From NCBI RefSeq assembly GCF_026210795.1, contig NC_089444.1:796501-860500 (forward strand): DNA of 64,000 bases, given 5' to 3'. This DNA is from Rhizophagus irregularis (lineage: Eukaryota > Glomeromycota > Glomeromycetes > Glomerales > Glomeraceae). The first letter of the stretch is position 1. Each line of letters begins with the position of its first letter. The notes under the pieces were generated by a model. The model did not search any database, was not told the origin of the DNA, and saw nothing but the letters and a program-made list of their open reading frames with translations. A program made the position numbers and the translations under genes. Positions 6,745-54,410 of the stretch are shown piece after piece.

Positions 6745-9700
6745 GGAAGAATTTGATATAGCAATAGACAGTAAAGGTAAAGCATATAACATGAATAATA
6801 ACTGATAATATAAATTAGAATTATTCAAAATTTTTAAAAACTTGCAATATAATAAAACTAGTTTTAAGCGATACTAAAGAACCTGAAGGTAAATATAATA
6901 TATAAAACAAAGTTGAAATATTAAGATTTTTATTTATTAAATAAACTTAATTGTAAATAATCAAATATAATTAAACCAAATTTGAAGGAAGTGACACCAA
7001 GGAATCTAAAGGTATATCAAACAAGCTGAAATATTAAGTTTTTATTTATAAGCAATTCAAATACTACAAATATAATTAGACTAACTATATTATATTAAAA
7101 TAATATTAAATATTTAGCTTGTAAGTTAATTTAATGAATTACTCATTATTTTTATTGTATTCTAAACAACTAAATAATTTATTTAATGATTAATATTACT
7201 CTAGTTGGTAAGTTATCAGTTATTTAAATTTTTAGTTCTTTACTTTATTTACTCTACATAACATTCAAATAATTAAATTCTCTGTTTGAATAACTATTTA
7301 ATAATTAATTATATTACAGATGGTAAGTTACAATATATATATTATATTTATTTGTTTAATATTTTATATGATTCAACTAATTATATTTTTAAATTTAAAT
7401 AACTAGATTGTAAGTAATATATATAATTTACAGTAAATACTTTTATATTATCTTTATATCTAACTAATTAATAATTAATAATAATTCAGGGTGTAAGTTA
7501 TATAATGTCTATATTTTTATTATTTATATAATTTAAGCTAACTAAATTCTTTATTTAAAAAATTATTAAATAATATAGTTTGTAGGTTATTTATTTAATT
7601 TTATTATTACTCATTGTTATAATATTTACATCTAACTAATTTCTTTATCTATTTAATAGATCGTAAGTTAAAAGTTATTTATTTGATTCTATTATTAGTT
7701 ACTTATTGTTATAATATTTACATGTAATTTAAACTAACCAATTTCTTTATTTAAAAAATTTAAATAATATAGAAAGTAAGTTATTTATTTAATTCTATTA
7801 TTACTTATTGTTGCAATATTTACATATAATTTAAACTAACCAATTTCTTTATTTAAAATATTTTTAAATAATATAGAAAGTAAGTTATTTATTTAATTCT
7901 ATTATTACTTATTGATATAATATTTACATGTAATTTAAACTAACTAATTTCTTTATTTAAAAAAATTATTAAATAATATAGAAAGTAAGTTGTTTATTAT
8001 TACTTATTGTTATAATATTTACATGTAATTTAAACTAACTAATTTCTTTATTTAAAAATTATTAAATAATATAGTTCGTAAGTTATTTAATTCTTAATTC
8101 TTATTACTTATTGTTATAATATTTACATATAATTTAAACTAACTAATTTCTTTACTATTTAAAAAATTATTAAATAATATAGTTCGTAAGTTATTTATTT
8201 AATTCTATTATTACTTATTGTTATAATATTTACATATAATTTAACTAACTAATTTCTTTATTTAAATAATTATTTTGTAATTTATTTTAGTTGGTAAGTC
8301 ATAGTTTATTTATTTAATTCTATTATTATTATTATTACATATAATTTAAACTAGCTAATCTCTTTATTTAAAAAATTATTAAATATTATAGGGAGTAAGT
8401 TATTCATTTAATTCTACTATTATTAATTTATATAATATTTATTTGTTAACTGGATTCTTTCATTTAAAAAATATCTGTTGCTTAGTTGGTAAGTTGTAAA
8501 TTATAGGTTATTATATATTTATCTAAAACTAAGATTTATATTACATCAAATTCTTTATTTAAATTTTAGAGTAAGTTATAATTTATTTTAGTGTAATTAT
8601 AATACCAAGCCATAATATAGTAATTTTAACTAATTAAATTTATAGATTTGAAAAAAGTAAAAATGCAATTATAGATGATTTTCTTCTTAAAAATGGATTA
8701 AAATGGATTCCTTATAACAAATTTAAAAATGTTGAATATCTTAATGAAGGAGGATTTGGTACTATCTATAAAGCTACTCGGTTAAAGAATAATAGAGATG
8801 AAGAAGTAATTCTTAAATGTCATAAGTATTTAAATGAAAACTTAAATGAATTTTTAAAAGAAGTATGATAGTATATTTATTTTTTATTTTTAATTTAATA
8901 TTTATTTATATTAATAAATTATTTATTATTTTTTATAGTGGAAATATCATGCAAGTGTTTTAAGTTCGAATGATATTATATATTTTTATGGATTTACAGA
9001 AGATCCAAATACTTCAAAATATATGATAGTAATGGATTATGCAAATAAAGGTAATTTAAGAGAAAATTTAACAAGTATAGTTGAAAATAATTGGAATCAA
9101 AAATTATATATATTGTACGAAATTATTTCTGGACTTAATAAGATACATAAAGAAAATCTTATTCATTGTGATTTTCATGATGGTAATATTTTAAATCATA
9201 ATGATAAGAATAAGGATAAATTTTATATTAGTGATTTAGGATTATGTCAACCTGTAAAATTATTTTTGAAAAAGTATGATATTTATGGTGTTCTACCATT
9301 TATGGCACCTGAAGTTTTAAGAGGTAATTCTTATACTCCAGAAAGTGATATATATAGTTTTTCTATGATTATGTGGGAGGTTACATCTGGAGTACCACCA
9401 TTTTATGATAGAGCTCATGATATTCAACTTAGTTTAAGTATTTGTAAAGGTGAACGTCCTGAAATTATTGAAAATACTCCACAATGCTATGTAAATTTGA
9501 TGAAAAAATGTTGGAATGAAGATCCATTAAAAAGGCCATCTACTTCTAAAGTGGAATCAGTTATTAGAAATTGGATTTTCCGTCCTTATAATGATAAAGT
9601 CAGTGAAGAATTAAAAAGCAACATTATGGAATTTATAAATGCACCAATTGGGTATAACAATCTTGTTACAAAATCTCACTCTAAAACATGTTATAAAAGT

Positions 9701-10069
9701 CGCTTACTTGATTTTACTAGTAAAAAATTGAATGAAATTCTTGAAAGTGAAGATTCACAAACAAGTGTAAAAGCAAATGAAATGCTAGTAAGTGAAGATT
9801 TGAATGATAATATAATTAAGGATTTAGGGTCATTAGGTATGTACTATGATACATAAAAGAATTAATCTTGCAAATTATTTATATAAAAATTAATTTATTT
9901 ATTTAATATTGAAACAGATGAGAATACTAGTAAAAAGTTGAATGAAATTCTTGAAAATGAAAATTCACAAGCTATTGTAGAAGCAAATGAACTGCTAGTA
10001 AGTGAAGATTTAAATGATTATATAATTAAGGATTTAGGATCATTAGGTATGGTGTACTGTGATATATAA
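6745..10069 (+). CDS. TKL-like protein kinase with single-codon microexon array (5' end unresolved)
   Basis: Best model: exons 6745-6775, 6862-6888, 6988-7011, fifteen 3-nt exons and one 1-nt exon between 7118 and 8570, then 8646-8862, 8939-9836, 9918-10069. The kinase starts at WIPYNKF. It has a glycine loop NEGGFGTIYKA, beta3 lysine VILK, a catalytic loop HCDFHDGN (Cys replaces Arg of HRD), DLG for DFG, APE (MAPEVL), and CW..DP..RP in the C-lobe. The C-terminal tail YKSRLLDF matches the tail of the other kinases. The intron after FLKE sits at the same position as in the other kinase genes. Reading through 9836 gives a stop at 9856; splicing 9837-9917 adds a duplicated tail exon in frame. 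Start codon and first exon are not settled. Substrate unknown. Confidence 0.7.
7118..8570 (+). repeat. Array of fifteen 3-nt candidate microexons plus one 1-nt microexon in tandem introns
   Basis: Units of 81-115 bp each end in a branch-like CTAAC/CTAAT, an A/T tract and AG, then exactly three bases, then GTAAGT (GTAGGT once). The three bases start at 7118 CTT, 7205 TTG, 7320 ATG, 7407 ATT, 7490 GGT, 7579 TTT, 7660 ATC, 7773 AAA, 7877 AAA, 7982 AAA, 8075 TTC, 8183 TTC, 8291 TTG, 8392 GGA, 8486 TTG. A final unit has a single A at 8570. Introns between about 7580 and 8290 are near-copies of one another, so the array grew by tandem duplication. Joined after the G ending the exon at 7011, they read AFDDWFYQKKILLGIEFE and enter the kinase exon at 8646 in frame. 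Confidence 0.7.
9918..10069 (+). repeat. Duplicated 3' tail exon of the microexon kinase
   Basis: Near-repeat of 9706-9856 (SKKLNEILE.E.SQ... DLGSLG). It is preceded by an acceptor (GAAACAG at 9917), and the parent copy carries a donor GTATGT at 9837, so this copy can be spliced on in frame. A third, decayed acceptor (AACGG) follows near 10126. The tail thus grows by exon duplication, like other parts of this gene. Confidence 0.65.
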
Positions 10070-14436: not shown

Positions 14437-16510
14437 GCAGTTTCGGTACCAGTTTTGTGATTTATCAAACTGATTACCAATCGGTTGATAAAAATTGTTA
14501 CAGAACGTCTTTTAACAAGTATTTGCATCATTTTTTTGTTAAAACAGTTAAAAGACATTACAAAACGTCTTTTAACAAGTAAATTAATAAATTAAAAAAT
14601 GTTTTGTATCATTTTTGTTAAAACAGTTAAAAAATGTTGCGAAACATTTTTTAACATTGGAATGAATTATTAAATGTAAGGCGCAGTATTATATTTAGTT
14701 TAGATACTTTAAAATTTTTATTTTATTTTATTTACTGCGTCCACAGTGAGTAAAACTATTAGAATTGTTAAGGGAATAAAACGTCCAGGTACATGGCATT
14801 AAACTGTACCTATAGGTGTCGTCAAAATGCCATATTTATAATTACAGCATTACGGCAAAATGGGAATTTGCCCTTAAAATATAAAGATCGGCATTCAATA
14901 ATTTATAAAATAATTTGGTAGAATGGTATTACGGTATAAGCTTTATATACCGTAATTAATTTTGATGACACCTATAACTGTGCCATATAATTCATTTTAG
15001 TGGACTATAGTTCTTGTAATTAATTTTTATTTTATTTTATTTGTTTGTTTATTTTAGAATAAGGAACATTGTAATCACAATAGAGATCGGAACTAAGGGG
15101 TGATGTATATTGTAACAATGATATTGGAAATTTTAAAGATATTAGAATGAAAAGTTAATTTCAGAATTAAGAATTTAATATTGAAGTTAAAATGGATAAA
15201 GTATGGATATTTAAAAGGGAATTTAATTGTAAATAATGGAAATTAATTTAGTCCGAAATGTTTAAATCGAGTACAGAACCAAGTGGGAACTTAAAAGTTA
15301 TAAAATGAGGGAACTTTAGGGCGTAATAATTTAATAGTATATGGGAAATAATCTATAAAATATAAATATTGAAATTATTAAGGAATTTGTTAGTTCTGAT
15401 ATTATTTTGAAGTTATATTAATAAGTATGAAACAAGGAATAATGTCTACTTAGGAGAAACTATCGAAGTTTAAAAGTGTAAATTATGAATAATGGGAATT
15501 TATTAATGATGTGGAAAATTCGGAATAAGAGACATAAATAATTTTATTAGTTTATTTTTATTTTTTCACTATATATTATTAGAACCAAGTATAGACTCGG
15601 GATTGTAACAGATTATTTTGTATTTTGTTATTATAAATAAAGTCAACAATGTTCAAGGTAAATGTGACTTGTCACAGTACGTCCTTACATGTAATTTAAT
15701 AAATAAGATAACGTTACGCAACGTTTTCTATTAAAAAATTAAAAATGTTTGCGAAAAACGTTTTTTATTAATAATTTAATAAAAAACAAACGTTTTTCTC
15801 AAACATTTTTAATTTTTTTTAACAAAAAAACGTTGCAAAAACGTTTTTTATTAATAATTTAATAAAAAAAACGTTTTTCGCAAACGTTTTTAATTGTTTT
15901 AATAGAAACGTTGCGAAAACGTTTTCTATTAATAATTTAATAAAAAAAACATTTATCTTAAATGTTTTTAATTTTTTTAACAAAAAAACATTTGCGAAAA
16001 CGTTTTTTATTAATAATTTAATAAAAAAAACGTTTTTTGCAAACTCTTTAATTGTTTTAATAGAAAACGTTGTGAAAACGTTTTCTATTAATAATTTAAT
16101 AAAAAAAAACATTTATCTTAAATGTTTTTAATTTTTTTAACAAAAAAACGTTGCAAAAATGTTTTTTATTAATAATTTAATAAAAAAAAACATTTTTCGC
16201 AAATGTTTTTAATTGTTTTAATAGAAAACGTTGCGAAAACGTTTTTATTAAGTAATTTAATTAAAAAAAATGGTTCACAATGCTTTTTAATAAAAAACAT
16301 TGCGAAACCTTTTTTTATTAAATAATTATATAGAAAAAAACGTTTTTGTAATTTTTTTACCTTAAAATAAAAATATTGCGAAAATAGTAAAAATCGGGCC
16401 AATAATAAATCGGTAAATCAGTTCGGTTTTCGGTAATTGACATACCGATACTGATCAATTTGGTTCAGTTTCGGTTTTGGCAAAAACCGAGCCGAACCGA
16501 ACTGCCTAGA
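14437..16510. mobile_element. Transposon-like block with GGCAGTTYGG ends
   Basis: The left part begins GGCAGTTTCGGTACCAG (about 14437). The right part, read in reverse, begins GGCAGTTCGGTTCGGCTCGG (ending about 16509). Both ends are rich in CGGTA/ACCGA words. Inside lies a segment from about 14675 to 15690 that starts TGTAAGGCGCAGTA, ends CAGTACGTCCTTACA and contains an AATAAA; it could be a solo LTR or another inserted element. No transposase ORF survives, and I cannot find a convincing target-site duplication for either layer, so the borders are provisional. Confidence 0.45.
15715..16380. repeat. Tandem array of self-complementary hairpin units
   Basis: Repeats of about 60-130 bp built from AACGTTTT...ATTAATAATTTAATAAAAAAAACGTTTTTCGCAA-type modules, each largely its own inverted complement (AACGTTT against AAACGTT around ATTAATAATTTAAT). 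Single strands would fold into a row of hairpins. ORFs called here on the minus strand are by-products of the repeat. Confidence 0.7.
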
Positions 16511-41284: not shown

Positions 41285-44200
41285 TTAATCTTCAATCATA
41301 CAATCAAAACCCTGAGACTCTGCTTGAACTGAAGTAAGTTTGCGACTTGTAAAATATGCTTGTGGATGATATTGTATGATAGAAGTGCTTGCTTTTTCTT
41401 GTACTAAAGCTTTGTTTGCTTCTACAAATTCTTTCATATCATTTTTTAGTTGATTATCAATATCAGATACAAAACATTCATAATTTTCATCTTTGTTTAT
41501 TTCATAATATTTATTAATACATCTAATCCATCCAGATATAATATTTTCAAGCATTATTATGGTTGGTCTATTGGAAGGACTTAAATCCCAACATTTTTTC
41601 ATTAAATCTATATAGCATTTTGGAGTATTTTCCATGATTTTAGGACGTTTCCCTTCATAAACACTTAAGATAAAGTGATGATCATGTGCTTCATGGTTAA
41701 ATGGAGGAATGCCTGATGTAAATTCCCACATTATCATTGAAAAGCTATAAATATCACTTGCTGGAATATAGGGTTTTTTTCTTAATATTTCAGGCGCCAT
41801 GTAGGGTAAAACTCCATAAATTTCATTAACTTTATTATCAGAATCTTGTAAATCACTTATAGGTTTGCATAATCCTAAATCAATAATAAATATCTCATTG
41901 TAATTATCTGACATTAAAATATTACCATCATGAAAATCACCATGAGTTAAATTTGATTCATGAATTACTTTAAGTCCTAATATAATTTTTTTCAATAATT
42001 GTAACTTATCTTGCCATTTGAATTTAATTATATCAGATAAACATTTTCTCAAACTTCCTTTTTTTGCATAACTCATTACTATTATATAATTTAAATTATT
42101 TGGATCTTGAGTAATACCTAAGAACTGAATAAATTTTGAAAATGATTTTTTCTGACAACTATAATAATATTTCCACTACATAAATGATAAAAAAATCATT
42201 AAATTTTTGCAAAAGTAAATAAAATTTACCATTATATACAAATACTATACCTCATCCAGAAATCTATTATTTAAACTTGATGAATTATTAAGTGTTTTAA
42301 GAACAACCTCATAACATGTTTGTCTATTCCATTGTTGTTTATCAAAATTCCAACCATAAATAGGTCCATCTGACCAGATAGCTTTATGAATTTCACTAAA
42401 TCCTCCTTTATCATAATAATTAATACTTGACAATTTATTATAAGGTATCCACTCTAATATTTCATAACTACTTTTAGCATTTAGTTGTGTTTCCTGAATA
42501 AATTTATCAATAAATTCATTTTTACTAGCCCACTTTAAAAAATTTTGTTGAAATCGTTTAGTATTACATTGTTGACACCACTGGTAATCAGTATATTTTT
42601 GCTTGCATTCATCACATAATCCAACTACTTCATTCTTAGGATTCACTTTGTTATTTTCTACTCCTTTTTGATACCAATAAAAGGCCTTTTCTAAATTCTT
42701 TTCTGTTCCTTCTCCATTATAATAGTGGTCGACTAAATTATACATTGCCTTTTCATCACCATTTTTTGCTGCTTTTTGACACCAATGAAAGGCTTTTTCT
42801 AAATTCTTTTCTATTCCTTCTCCATTATAGTAACTATTGGCTAAATTAAACATTGACTTAGTATAATCATTTTCTGCTGCTTTTTGATACCAATGAAAGG
42901 CTTTTTCTAAATTCTTTTCTGTTCCTTCTCCATTTTCATAACATATGGCTAAATTATTCATTGCAATAATATGATCATTTTCTGCTGCTTTTTGATACCA
43001 ATGAAAGGCTTTTTCTAAATTCTTTTCTGTTCCTTCTCCATTTTCATAACATAAAGCTAAATTATTCATTCCTCCAGTATGACCATTTTCTGCTGCTTTT
43101 TGATACCAATGAAAGGCTTTTTCTAAAATCTTTTCTGTTCTTTCTCCATTTTTATAACATATGGCTAAACTATGCATTGCTTCTTTTTCACCATTTTCTG
43201 CTGCTTTTTGATACCAATGAAAAGCTTTTTCTAAATTCTTTTCTATTCCTTCTCCATAATAATAGTGTATAGCTAAACTATTCATTGCTTTTTTTTCACC
43301 ATTTTCTGCTGCTTTTTGATACCAATGAAAGGCTTTTTCTAAATTCTTTTCTGTTCCTTCTCCATAATAATAGCGTATAGCTAAATTAAACATTGCATTT
43401 TCTTCACCATTTTCTGCTGCTTTTTGATACCAATGAAAGGCTTTTTCTAAATTCTTTTCTATTCCTTCTCCACTTTTATAACATATGGCTAAATTATTCA
43501 TTGCTCCAATATGACCATTTTCTGCTGCTTTTTGATACCAATGAAATGCTTTTTCTAGATTCTTTTCTATTCCTTCTCCATCATAGTGGCTGCCGGCTAA
43601 ATTAAACATTGCATTAGTATAATCATTTACTGCTGCTTTTTGATACCAATAAAAGGCTTTTTCTAAATTCTTTTCTATTCCTTTTCCATTTTCATAACAT
43701 ATGGCTAAATTATACATTGCAATAATATGACCATTTTCTGCTGCTTTTTGATACCAATGAAAGGCTTTTTCCAAATTCTTTTCTGTTCCTATTCCATCTT
43801 CATAACATATAGCTAAACTATTCATTGCAACAATATAACCTTTTTCTGCTGCTTTGTGATACAAATAAAAGGCTTTTTCTAAATTCTTTTCTGTTCCTAT
43901 TCCATCTTCATAACATATGGCTAAACTATTCATTGCAATAATATAATTATTTTCTGCTGCTTTTTGATACCAATGAAAGGCTTTTTCTAAATTCTTTTCT
44001 GTTCCTTCTCCATAATAATAGCGTATAGCTAAATTAAACATTGCATTTTCTTCACCATTTTCTGCTGCTTTTTGATACCAATGAAAGGCTTTTTCTAAAT
44101 TCTTTTCTATTCCTTCTCCACTTTTATAACATATGGCTAAATTATTCATTGCTCCAATATGACCATTTTCTGCTGCTTTTTGATACCAATGAAATGCTTT

Positions 44201-50261: not shown

Positions 50262-53200
50262 ATGTCATATAACAAGACATCATACAATAAATGTAAAAAA
50301 TGTCATGAAATATACACAGACACAAATTATAAATGGTGTAAATTCTGTCAAATAAAAGATATAAAAGAAATTTTTACCAGTGGTAACGAAAAAATTGATA
50401 AATTTATTCAAGAAAAACAACTAGAAATCAATAATCCGTCAGATATAATATTTGAATGGATACCATACGATCAATTTTTTGATATTAATGAAGTATACAA
50501 TGATAACTCTTCTACGATATATTTAGCAAGATGGAAGAATGGTCCATTATATTGGGATCATTATCATGAAAAAAAATATATAAGAACCCCTCATGGTAAA
50601 GAAATTACTATAAAATATACACATAATTTACAAAGTATTGATGAATTTCTAAATGAAGTATGTAATATTTCTATGAACTTGAATCACTTTAACATAACAA
50701 ATAATTTATTTATTTATATTTGATAGGTTAAAGAATATTCTATTAATTTCAAAGTATATGGAATATCTCAAAATCCGAATACAAATGAATATATTTTAAT
50801 TTTAGAAAATGAATATGGTAAATATTGTATAAAATGTAATAAAGTTTATACAGATGTAGGTAAAGAATGGTGTAAACAATGTCAAATTAATTATTTAAGA
50901 AATAATTTTTCTAATTGGACCAGTGGAAATGAAAAAATTGATAATTTTATCCAAGAAAGGCAATTAGGAAATAACTCATCAGACATAATATTTGAGTGGA
51001 TAGCATACGATCAGTTTTTTGACATTAATAAAGTGAATAAAAATGATTTTTCTACAACATATTCAGCAAAATGGAAGAATGGTCCATTATATTACTTAGA
51101 TCAAAAATATGTAAGATTTTCATCAAATAAAGTAATTGCTTTAAAATTTTTACATAATTTAAAAGATATTGATGAATTTCTAAATGAGGTATGAACATTT
51201 TCTTAATGAACTTACAGTAACCACTTATTAAAATTTTAATTAGGAATTAAAGTTAAATCATTTTTAACTATAATAATAATTTTATTTTATAATAATTAGG
51301 TTAAAGAATATTTGATTAATTTCAAAATATATGGAATGTCTCAAAATCCAGATACAAAAGATTATATTATGGCTTTAAGTCTTAAAGATTATTGTACAAA
51401 ATGTTGTATTAAATGTAACAACATATATCCAAGTATATATTCTAAATGGTGTAAATCATGTCAAATAGAAAATTTGAAGGAAAATTTTATTAATTGGACC
51501 AGTAAAAATGAAGAAATTGATGACTTTATTCAAGAAAAGCAATTAAATATTAATGACTCATCAGAAATAATTTTTGAGTGGATACCATCTAATCAATTTC
51601 TCAACATTAACGAAGTAAATAAAGATGATTCTTCTACAGTATGTTCAGCAAAATGGAAGGACGGTCCATTATACTGGGGACATCGTCTAGATAAAAAGTA
51701 TATAAGACTACAAAAAAAAGAAGTTACTCTGAAATATTTACATAATTTACAAAATGTTGATGAATTTTTAAATGAAGTATGGATATTTTATATTAACTTG
51801 AATTATTTTTTGATACTAATGTAATTTATCTATTTATATTTAATAGGTTAAAGCATATTCTATCAACTTCAAAGTATATGGAATATCTCAAAGCCCAGAT
51901 ACAAAAGATTATATTTTAGTTTTATATGATGAATATGGAAAATATTGTATAAAATGTAATAAAGTTTATACGGACGTAAATAATAGATGGTGTAAACAAT
52001 GTCAAATAAATCATTTAAGAAAAAATTTTACTTATTGGACGAGTGGAAACGAGAAAATTAATGATTTTATCCAAAAAAGGCAATTAAGGATTAATAATCC
52101 ATTGGATATAATATTTGAATGGATATCATACGATCTATTTTTTGACATTAAAAAGATAGATGAAAATAACTTTTCTACAATATATTTGGCGAAATGGAAG
52201 AATGGTCCATTACGTTGGGATGAGAATAGTAAAGAATACAAAAAACATCAATATGAAGAAGTTTCTTTAAAATGTTCACATAATTCACAAAGTATTGATG
52301 AATTTCTAACTGAGGTATGAAATTTTTTATATGAACTTATATGAACTTAATCATTTTATAGTATATTAATAATTTATTTATACTTAATAGGTTCAAGAAT
52401 ATTTAACAAATTTTATATTATATGGAATATCCCAAAATCCCGTTACAAAAGATTATATTATAGCTTTCTTAGATAAAGATTATTGTATAAACTGTAACAA
52501 TACTTATACAGAAGTAAAAAATAGATGGTGTAAACAATGCCAAATAAATAATTTAAGAGAAACTTTGACTAACTGGACCAGTGGAAACGAAAAAATTGAT
52601 GATTTTATTCAAGAAAAGCAATTAGGAATTAATGATCCACTTGACGTAGTATTTGAGTGGATACCATACAATCAATTTTGTGATATTAAAGAGATAGATA
52701 GTGATGACTTTTCTACAGTATTATATTCAGCTAAATGGAACAGTGGTCCATTATATTGGGGAAGTTTGCTTAAAATATATACAAGAGAACCAGATATGAA
52801 AGTTATTTTAAAACATTTATATAATCTACAAAATATTGATGGATTTTTAAATGAGGTATGAAGTTTTACTATGAATTAAATCATTTAATATAATATATTA
52901 ATTTATTATTATATTTGAATAGGTTAAGGCACATTCAATCAATTTTACAGTATATGGAATATCTCAAAATCCAGATACAAATGATTATATTTTAGTTTGG
53001 CAAGATAAATATGGAGAATATTGTAAAAAATGTAACAATGTTTATACAAATGTGGATGATCAATGGTGCAAACAATGCCAAATAAATTATTTAAAAAATA
53101 ATTTTATTAATTGGTCTAGTGAAAATGATGTAATTGATAATTTTATTCAACAAAGGCAATTAGAGGCTAACGGTCGATTGGATGTAATATCGGAGTGGAT

Positions 53201-54410
53201 ACCATATAATCAATTTCTTAACATCAAAGAAATAGGTAAAGGTGGTTTTGCCACTATATATTCAGCAACATGGAAAGGTGGTCCGTTAAATTATTGTGTT
53301 GATAAAAGCAAATATACGAGAATTTTAGATAAAATGGTTGCTTTAAAATGCTTACATAATTCCCAAAATATTACTAATGAGTTTTTAAATGAGGTACGAC
53401 ATTTTCCTTATAAATTTCGCCATTAATTTATAGTAATTATTTTTTTGTTTTAATAGATTAAAGAATATTCAATAGATAACCATGGTAATAATATTGTTAA
53501 GATATATGGTTTATCCCAAAATCCGGATACAAAAGAATTTATTATAATTCTTGATTATGCAGAAGGCGGAAATCTTAATAATTGGTTAAACAAAAATTAT
53601 AAATATTTTTCTTGGTTAGCTAAAATAAATACGTTACTTAATATCAGTAATGGACTTAAAGAGATTCATCAAAAACAGAGAGTTCATCGTGATTTACATA
53701 CAGGGAATATATTATTATTTGTGAATAACATAAATATCTTCGATGATAATATAATATCAATTTCTGATATGGGATTATGTGGAGAAGTTGATAATATAGA
53801 CAAATCAAATATTTATGGAGTTATGCCTTATGTAGCCCCTGAAGTATTAAGAAGAAAACCTTATACTCAAGCAGCAGACATATATAGCTTTGGTATGATT
53901 ATGTATTTTGTAGCAACTGGAAAACAACCATTTACTAAGTGTGCTCACGATAAGCTTCTAGCATTAGATATATGCAATGAAATTAGACCTGAAATTAATG
54001 AGCAAGAAGTACCAAAATGTTATATTGATTTAATGAAAAGGTGTTGGGATTCAAATCCAGAAAATAGACCAAATTCTTTAACACTATACGAATCAATTTT
54101 ACAATTTCGTAAGTCATATAGAGGAAAAATTATTGATACAGGAACATATGATAACGAGACTGATGCTGGTAATATTAAGGAGCAATTAATTCAGCCATCT
54201 GATAAAATTGAGAAGTATGATAGTAATGAAATTGATGATCAATTCAAAAAAGCGGAAGAATACAGAATAGAATATCTTTCATTCGAAGAAGATAATCAAT
54301 CAGATACCCATCCACAAGCAATTTTTATAGCCCGATTACTTAACTCTTTTACCGATGAACTTCCAGAATTTGATGACGATAAGTCTGAAGCTTTAGACTG
54401 TAAAATATAA
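50262..54410 (+). CDS. Multi-N-lobe kinase: six zinc-ribbon/N-lobe units and one catalytic C-lobe
   Basis: Exons 50262-50657, 50727-51188, 51300-51776, 51847-52314, 52391-52855, 52923-53393, 53457-54410; all junctions phase 0, total 1230 residues. Exons 1-6 each end with ribbon (C-x2-C..WC-x2-C), linker, WIPYNQF-like and beta1-alphaC. Exons 2-6 begin with beta4-beta5 (INFKVYGISQNPDTK). Thus every splice junction rebuilds an N-lobe, but only the sixth (KEIGKGGFATIYSATW, VALK) keeps a true glycine loop and is followed by a C-lobe: HRDLHTGN, DMG for DFG, VAPEVL, DIYSFGMIM, CWDSNPENRP. The tail has HPQAIFIARLL. The earlier five N-lobes have lost the loop glycines but mostly keep the Lys (ALK, TLK, SLK, ILK). 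Likely an active kinase carrying five pseudo-N-lobes as binding modules. Confidence 0.88.

Follow-up and report, generated by a model that had tools for sequence, protein, structure and literature searches.

Tandem arrays of putative single-codon exons ahead of the kinase domain in a gene family of Rhizophagus irregularis

Introduction

The nearest known kind of gene to the one analyzed here is the flatworm micro-exon gene (MEG). In the available portion of the source, a MEG is defined by at least seven exons, at least half of them micro-exons shorter than 70 nt with lengths divisible by three, in runs of at least four (PMC7653826). Schistosome and other flatworm MEGs are described, in the accessible text, as having exons of 3–81 bp, introns of up to 5 kb, and secreted protein products (PMC10526429). 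The bicycle and megacycle genes of aphids also consist of many small exons, and one gene with more than 100 microexons is reported in the sections at hand (PMC9168663). Exons of 1–3 nt are known but isolated, as an earlier note on this DNA had rightly stated. In the excerpts that we could consult, such 1-nt and 3-nt exons are found in plant APC11 and VPS55 and in Fusarium CYP621A (PMC8831610, PMC12940212), with Drosophila homothorax as a further isolated case, and the available part of PMC12940212 claims the first fungal example of a one-base exon. In Rhizophagus irregularis itself, a soil-dwelling fungal partner of plant roots, no motif is more frequent than PF07714 in the rapidly expanded genes according to the accessible sections of PMC6123716, and the same sections, like those of PMC10234402, give accounts of this fungus that do not speak of single-codon exons. 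In the open-access literature, a scope that leaves aside preprints and most subscription papers, we found no described array of single-codon exons.

Here we analyze a window of 64,000 nucleotides from the R. irregularis genome and, within it, a kinase gene whose upstream part is a row of sites enclosing three bases each. Of the 21 predicted exons of this gene, 17 qualify under the MEG exon rule, 15 of them consecutive. The gene is like flatworm MEGs in having consecutive exons with lengths divisible by three, but the array exons are all one codon long and alternate with tandemly repeated introns of ~100 nt, and the gene encodes a kinase, matching PF07714 and the protein kinase family PF00069, and not one of the secreted flatworm MEG proteins. 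Many small exons and fast evolution are shared with the aphid bicycle and megacycle genes, whereas the protein and the phylum are unrelated and the portion of PMC9168663 available describes no single-codon tandem arrays. APC11, VPS55, CYP621A, and homothorax are similar in exon size and in the restoration of the frame by a one-base exon; unlike the array, those are single exons in single genes. The match to PF07714 is a likeness to the expanded tyrosine-kinase-like genes of R. irregularis. We rate the architecture as a categorically different kind, because the coding unit would be a tandem intron repeat giving one codon, serially, in a variable gene family; it is an extreme variant if any run of micro-exons counts as one kind.

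Results

An array of predicted three-base exons in the window gene

On the + strand of the window, AG-N-GTA[AG]GT sites of the array lie at 7116, 7203, 7318, 7405, 7488, 7577, 7658, 7771, 7875, 7980, 8073, 8181, 8289, 8390, 8484, and 8568. The fifteen triplets enclosed, in order, are those listed below, and the last site encloses one base, A. The fifteen three-base units and the one-base unit that the earlier note had placed at 7118–8570 were reproduced with the same coordinates and letters, as were the GTAAGT-like donors at all sixteen sites (GTAAGT in 15 and GTAGGT in one). The spacing, given before as 76–115 bp, holds at its upper end only: the site-to-site distance is 81–115 bp, and the 76-bp value belongs to the interval between 8570, the one-base exon, and 8646, where the kinase exon starts. 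Three-base sites account for 18 of the 38 AG...GT sites with 0–15 enclosed bases on the + strand, 15 of the 18 being inside the array, and for 1 of 16 on the − strand. A tandem repeat with a period of about 104 covers 7672–8441. The features of the gene are as follows.

6764–6776, + strand: presumed exon 1 (ATAGACAGTAAAG), predicted from an alignment of nine genes and exon borders
6862–6888, + strand: presumed exon 2, 27 nt, ending in phase 1, predicted
6988–7011, + strand: presumed exon 3, 24 nt, ending in phase 1 ahead of the array, predicted
7118–7120, + strand: single-codon exon 1, CTT, from the splice-site scan (as are all features down to the one-base exon)
7205–7207, + strand: single-codon exon 2, TTG
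7320–7322, + strand: single-codon exon 3, ATG
7407–7409, + strand: single-codon exon 4, ATT
7490–7492, + strand: single-codon exon 5, GGT, forming the conserved W with exon 4
7579–7581, + strand: single-codon exon 6, TTT, donor GTAGGT
7660–7662, + strand: single-codon exon 7, ATC
7773–7775, + strand: single-codon exon 8, AAA
7877–7879, + strand: single-codon exon 9, AAA
7982–7984, + strand: single-codon exon 10, AAA
8075–8077, + strand: single-codon exon 11, TTC
8183–8185, + strand: single-codon exon 12, TTC
8291–8293, + strand: single-codon exon 13, TTG
8392–8394, + strand: single-codon exon 14, GGA
8486–8488, + strand: single-codon exon 15, TTG
7121–8569, + strand: array introns, about 80–112 nt each
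8570, + strand: one-base exon, A, restoring the kinase frame
8646–8862, + strand: first kinase exon (FEKSKNAIIDDF..WIPYN..GGFGTIYK..), from genome matches and frame
8939–9835, + strand: second kinase exon with the PF07714 match, 3′ border predicted

The PF07714 match scores 114.5 bits, against a Pfam gathering cut-off of 23.1, and the open reading frame of the second kinase exon runs to 9856 if the presumed donor is ignored. The acceptor of presumed exon 3 (6988) is unlike that of most aligned paralogs. The kinase exon at 8646 opens with the third base of a codon. Skipping the whole array by joining 7011 to 8646 causes a frameshift into a stop, as does omission of the one-base exon alone, and the frame stays intact when all three-base exons are left out and the one-base exon is kept. 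Full inclusion gives the peptide AFDDWFYQKKILLGIEFE, the same and in the same frame as proposed before. At 6764–6766 the window has ATA, where the paralogs in the nine-gene alignment have their presumed start ATG; because of this difference, the window copy may be silent, or may use another start, even if the kinase family is active.

Recurrence in related kinase genes

We searched the genome (146,748,485 bases in 32 contigs) for three successive sites with 3-nt exons, using the pattern GTRAGT-N62-92-AGNNNGTRAGT-N62-92-AGNNNGTRAGT, and compared exon lengths of 3 and 4 nt. The 3-nt pattern occurs at 1742 places (875 + 867), against 77 + 0 for the backwards pattern, and its 4-nt counterpart at one place (0 + 1), against 1 + 2 backwards. 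Among the triple-pattern matches listed, 100 places form 11 clusters. In nine of these, a family kinase exon follows no more than about 2 kb downstream; in another, at the end of the list, it comes after about 7.5 kb, and the remaining one is a lone place without a known family kinase exon.

The first kinase exon (8646–8862) has at least 151 matches in the genome. We parsed 39 loci, namely the window, 36 picked by the kinase exon (11 extended, 9, and 16; L046, L047, and L069 were previously known to lie beside an array), and two picked by the array (L067 and L068), in each of which the array precedes a family kinase exon. The ~1-kb pieces L048–L051 and the array at C1:1381985-1387000 (L001–L015) stand outside these counts. 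Three-base exons are present in all 39 loci, at least eight of them in 34, and the other five (L018, L039, L058, L062, and L065) have only 4–7 before gap filling. The number per locus has a median of 30 and a maximum of 44, or 45 with variant donors added. These lengths are lower bounds, as the first parsed exon is less than 300 bases from the fetched end in 14 of the 39 loci. Exact copies of one intron, described below, lie up to about 9.6 kb upstream of a kinase exon and suggest that arrays may be longer than parsed. A rough scaling by triple matches, from a sample that is not random, gives ~270 arrays and ~7,500 exons genome-wide. The array, reported earlier as lying in a kinase gene, does lie in one in the window, but its scope was drawn too narrowly: it is a trait of a kinase subfamily, a family-wide architecture with differing letters across related genes.

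Many array introns are near-identical, and their form is canonical. Among 550 contiguous introns from the first 21 genes, the length is 67–125 nt (median 98), the GC content is 11.5%, and 528 start with GTAAGT. A CTRAY branch motif is present in 479 of them, with a median distance to the acceptor of 33 nt, compared with 148 of 550 shuffled introns. The one-base exon was located in all 39 loci, in 34 by a local scan, in L067 in the downstream piece L070, in L058, L063, and L065 with variant splice sites, and in L039 ahead of a multi-kb interruption. It is A everywhere except in L041 (T) and L069 (G).

Two loci have peculiarities of their own. In L039 (C17:4227840-4232500), the one-base exon and the kinase exon are several kilobases apart, and this paralog looks interrupted. 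In L017, the second array exon is TTGTTG, six bases, where the paralogs have TTG.

Stop codons are avoided between adjacent exons

The kinase exon fixes the reading frame, in which a junction codon takes its first base from the end of one exon and its other two from the start of the exon after it. We counted stops among these codons and shuffled exon order within genes as the null. In the first set of 21 genes, stops occur at 1 of 550 adjacent junctions compared with 17.7 ± 3.3 after shuffling, with no value this small among 20,000 shuffles; counted over distinct adjacent exon pairs, there is 1 stop in 239 where 13.2 are expected. A second set of 18 loci, fetched later and parsed by the same rules, has no stop in 365 junctions compared with 15.7 ± 3.1 (lowest shuffle 5). 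For all 39 loci with 36 variant-donor exons added, the count is 1 in 987 compared with 34.8 ± 4.6 (lowest shuffle 18), and the 72 junctions of the added exons have zero stops. The lone adjacent stop in the whole set is in L044. The window array alone is not significant, as 37% of its shuffles are stop-free.

The avoidance is confined to neighbours. Exons 2–8 places apart give stops in 3.1–4.7% of pairings (31 of 891 at distance 2), and the other junction phase gives 69 stops in 550 junctions of the first set, compared with 57.2 ± 5.2 shuffled, and 65 in 365 of the second. The next exon starts with AA, AG, or GA in 1 of 270 cases after a T-ending exon and in 157 of 717 after other exons. Stops within exons are rare as well (4 of 1101, each a TGA), a count that by itself would also fit the in-exon frame. 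Exons beginning with TA do not occur, however, and those beginning with TG number only 10, irrespective of the third base, and the rarity therefore says little about frame. The parsed arrays contain 108 over-long gaps, of which 36 can be filled by variant-donor exons. Reading straight across the 72 that are left gives 4 stops, near the chance rate. A few of the over-long gaps contain 0- or 2-nt sites, which would break the frame.

Because stop avoidance is confined to adjacent exons, it is most likely that the array exons are spliced together in series and translated in the kinase frame, and consecutive inclusion with translation in this frame is the only reading that we found to predict the junction numbers. 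The earlier proposal of single-codon coding exons in frame with the kinase gains support from this adjacent-only pattern in 39 arrays.

The predicted peptide is an insertion in the kinase linker

Two canonical kinases in the window carry the linker F..W-x-S-x-N, with FLKWASKNEFIDKF near 42.5 kb and FINWSSENDVIDNF near 53.1 kb. The predicted array peptide fits this linker, which bears out the proposed match to the ribbon-linker of sister kinases. The canonical kinases have one residue at the array position, and in the predicted protein the array-encoded residues come between the W and the S-x-N of the linker as an insertion. The conserved F-x-x-W is itself divided into single-codon exons: the first codons of the array genes spell F/L-x-D/N-W, whole or in part, and in 26 of 39 loci ATT-GGT, which forms the W codon, comes no later than the seventh parsed exon, the rest including arrays without a fetched start. 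In 22 of the 39 loci, the series of three-base exons closes with CTT-TTG.

Between these conserved ends, the middle of the peptide varies in length and sequence even among close paralogs. It is FYQKKILLGI in the window, Gln-rich in L056, and a repeated WIDHRFVN block in L063. L054 and L055, which differ by 1.9% in the kinase exon, share zero collinear codons in their fetched parts. The commonest residues are Trp (the most frequent, at 97 of 987 codons), Arg, Phe, Asp, and Asn. The four bases are even at the first codon position (P = 0.41), and the third position across the 39 loci is T in 647 exons, G in 350, A in 94, and C in 10, making T or G 997 of 1101; in the kinase exons of the window gene, the third position is 51% T and 9% G.

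Units are duplicated and codons diverge

The earlier note had explained the array by tandem duplication of intron-plus-codon units. This explanation is borne out by the identical codon blocks in L019, L055, L057, and L063, but there are also units with near-identical introns whose codons differ. Recent blocks with codons kept, several in number, occur in L019, L053, L055, L056, L057, and L067. Among duplicated blocks within genes, all codons are kept in 5 of 12, and in 3 of the 4 without an intron substitution. From such comparisons, units appear to be gained by duplication and lost in blocks. Exact copies of one 101-nt intron number 30 and are spread over six contigs, all 30 on the same strand as, and upstream of, a family kinase exon.

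In 146 unit pairs (not independent) with less than 1% mismatch in both intron cores, exon positions 1–3 differ at 51, 29, and 62%, respectively, and in pairs with at most two intron differences the codon is the same in 12 of 30. Pooled differences amount to 29 of 96 exon positions and 32 of 4249 intron positions, counts that may include chance pairings of common introns. A unit-level alignment of eight paralog pairs, from partly fetched arrays, gave at most short runs of matching introns with codons mostly different. Codons probably change faster than the neighbouring introns, through selection, targeted mutation, or homogenisation of introns. We rejected hypermutation of codons as the settled reading, given the shared codons in 12 of 30 near-identical-intron pairs and the 5 of 12 duplicated blocks with all codons kept. 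We also rejected the idea that array introns are younger, which the divergence of their best matches (median 4.6%, compared with 9.3% for kinase exons; 24 of 39 loci passing the filter, 253 gene pairs) seems to suggest, since taking the best of many introns biases the comparison.

An intronless retrocopy was searched for genome-wide with the joined window peptide, and none of 150 scored matches covered the start of the query. The four array-reaching matches that were inspected (L048–L051) have no intact exons: L048 and L049 have 3-nt exons, L050 only TTG and one-base sites, and L051 a one-base site only.

Discussion

We consider it very probable that the array is coding. Each unit of ~100 bp, in tandem with the next, would consist of one canonical intron (GTAAGT ... 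CTRAY ... TAG) and one codon of exon, and each would be spliced to its direct neighbour in order, giving a peptide of ~15 to more than 40 residues just before the kinase domain, flanked by the family's F/L-x-D/N-W and S-x-N motifs. The one-base exon would end the array and set the kinase frame. The introns would presumably be removed successively by intron definition with the nearest acceptor chosen, since a 3-nt exon leaves hardly any room for two splice complexes. Exchange between similar introns would duplicate or delete units, by which codons could be gained or lost without a frameshift, and the array segment may be a rapidly evolving part of the kinase with a role in recognition or regulation.

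An AG close to a GT resembles a recursive splice site, and the array could in principle be one long intron removed stepwise through recursive or decoy sites, the three bases never reaching the mRNA. It is very improbable that this is the case: stops are avoided only between adjacent exons, the exon length is 3 and not 4 genome-wide, the 7011–8646 join shifts the frame of the window gene, and the conserved W codon is divided over two exons. Recursive splicing is also recognized by a zero-length exon, with AG directly followed by GT, whereas the sites of the array enclose three bases in fifteen cases and a single base in the sixteenth. Alternative splicing, by which the array of one gene would yield many peptides in the manner of flatworm micro-exon genes, has in its favour that skipping a 3-nt exon keeps the frame and that the window gene is in frame with the one-base exon alone. 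Common skipping, with harmful stops kept out, would be expected to leave few stops between exons at distance 2 as well; no such deficit is seen, and we regard such use of the array as unlikely. With no sign of selection on skip products at that distance, the pattern argues for adjacent inclusion as the main product, alongside which minor skipping may occur.

Frame- and adjacency-specific stop avoidance in two gene sets, together with an exon base composition unlike that of the introns, makes it hardly credible that the array is a non-coding satellite, that is, a tandem repeat in an intron with splice-like motifs arising by chance, although the repeat structure and the very AT-rich sequence would fit one. 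An introner-like origin, in which a mobile intron family inserted repeatedly at places three bases apart, would account for the dispersal of the 101-nt intron over six contigs and for near-identical introns flanking different codons, but we think it quite unlikely, as the exact copies all share the strand of, and lie upstream of, a listed kinase exon, and codon blocks have been duplicated along with their introns. The canonical kinases have one residue at the array position, so there was no long exon to split. Introners are recognized by similar introns dispersed across unrelated genes, and each of the 30 exact copies of this intron belongs to the upstream region of a kinase exon of the one family.

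For the serially spliced coding array, we tentatively entertain a further possibility. The array may be a hypervariable recognition segment, with one codon per exon for quick rewriting, in which length changes by gain and loss of units and codons diverge far faster than introns under strong diversifying selection or a targeted process. The product would then act much as a binding loop diversified in the germline does, in recognizing self and non-self or partners. This idea is drawn from the even first codon position in an AT-rich genome and from the predominance of Trp, Arg, Phe, Asp, and Asn.

Should the exons be used in the way their sequence implies, one residue can be encoded per exon over dozens of consecutive exons in a stretch that is ~97% intron. 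The arrays would then show how short an exon the spliceosome can manage in series and offer a route to adding or removing single residues without a frameshift, and a large kinase family would gain a variable part that gene annotation probably overlooks. The one-base exon common to the sampled loci would, if true, extend the one-base size class in fungi.

Other repeats and kinases in the window

Two related kinases in the window, at 41327–42526 (− strand) and 51501–54104 (+ strand), are without single-codon arrays; the latter is a row of several partial copies, and upstream of the former lie repeated segments that we take to be Sel1-like. At the 3′ end of the window gene (9721–10045), a coding stretch, SKKLNEILE...DLGSLG, is tandemly repeated at ~9721–9835 and ~9921–10045, another duplication on the scale of an exon. 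A further tandem repeat, with a period of 81 and 6.6 copies, lies at 15741–16270.
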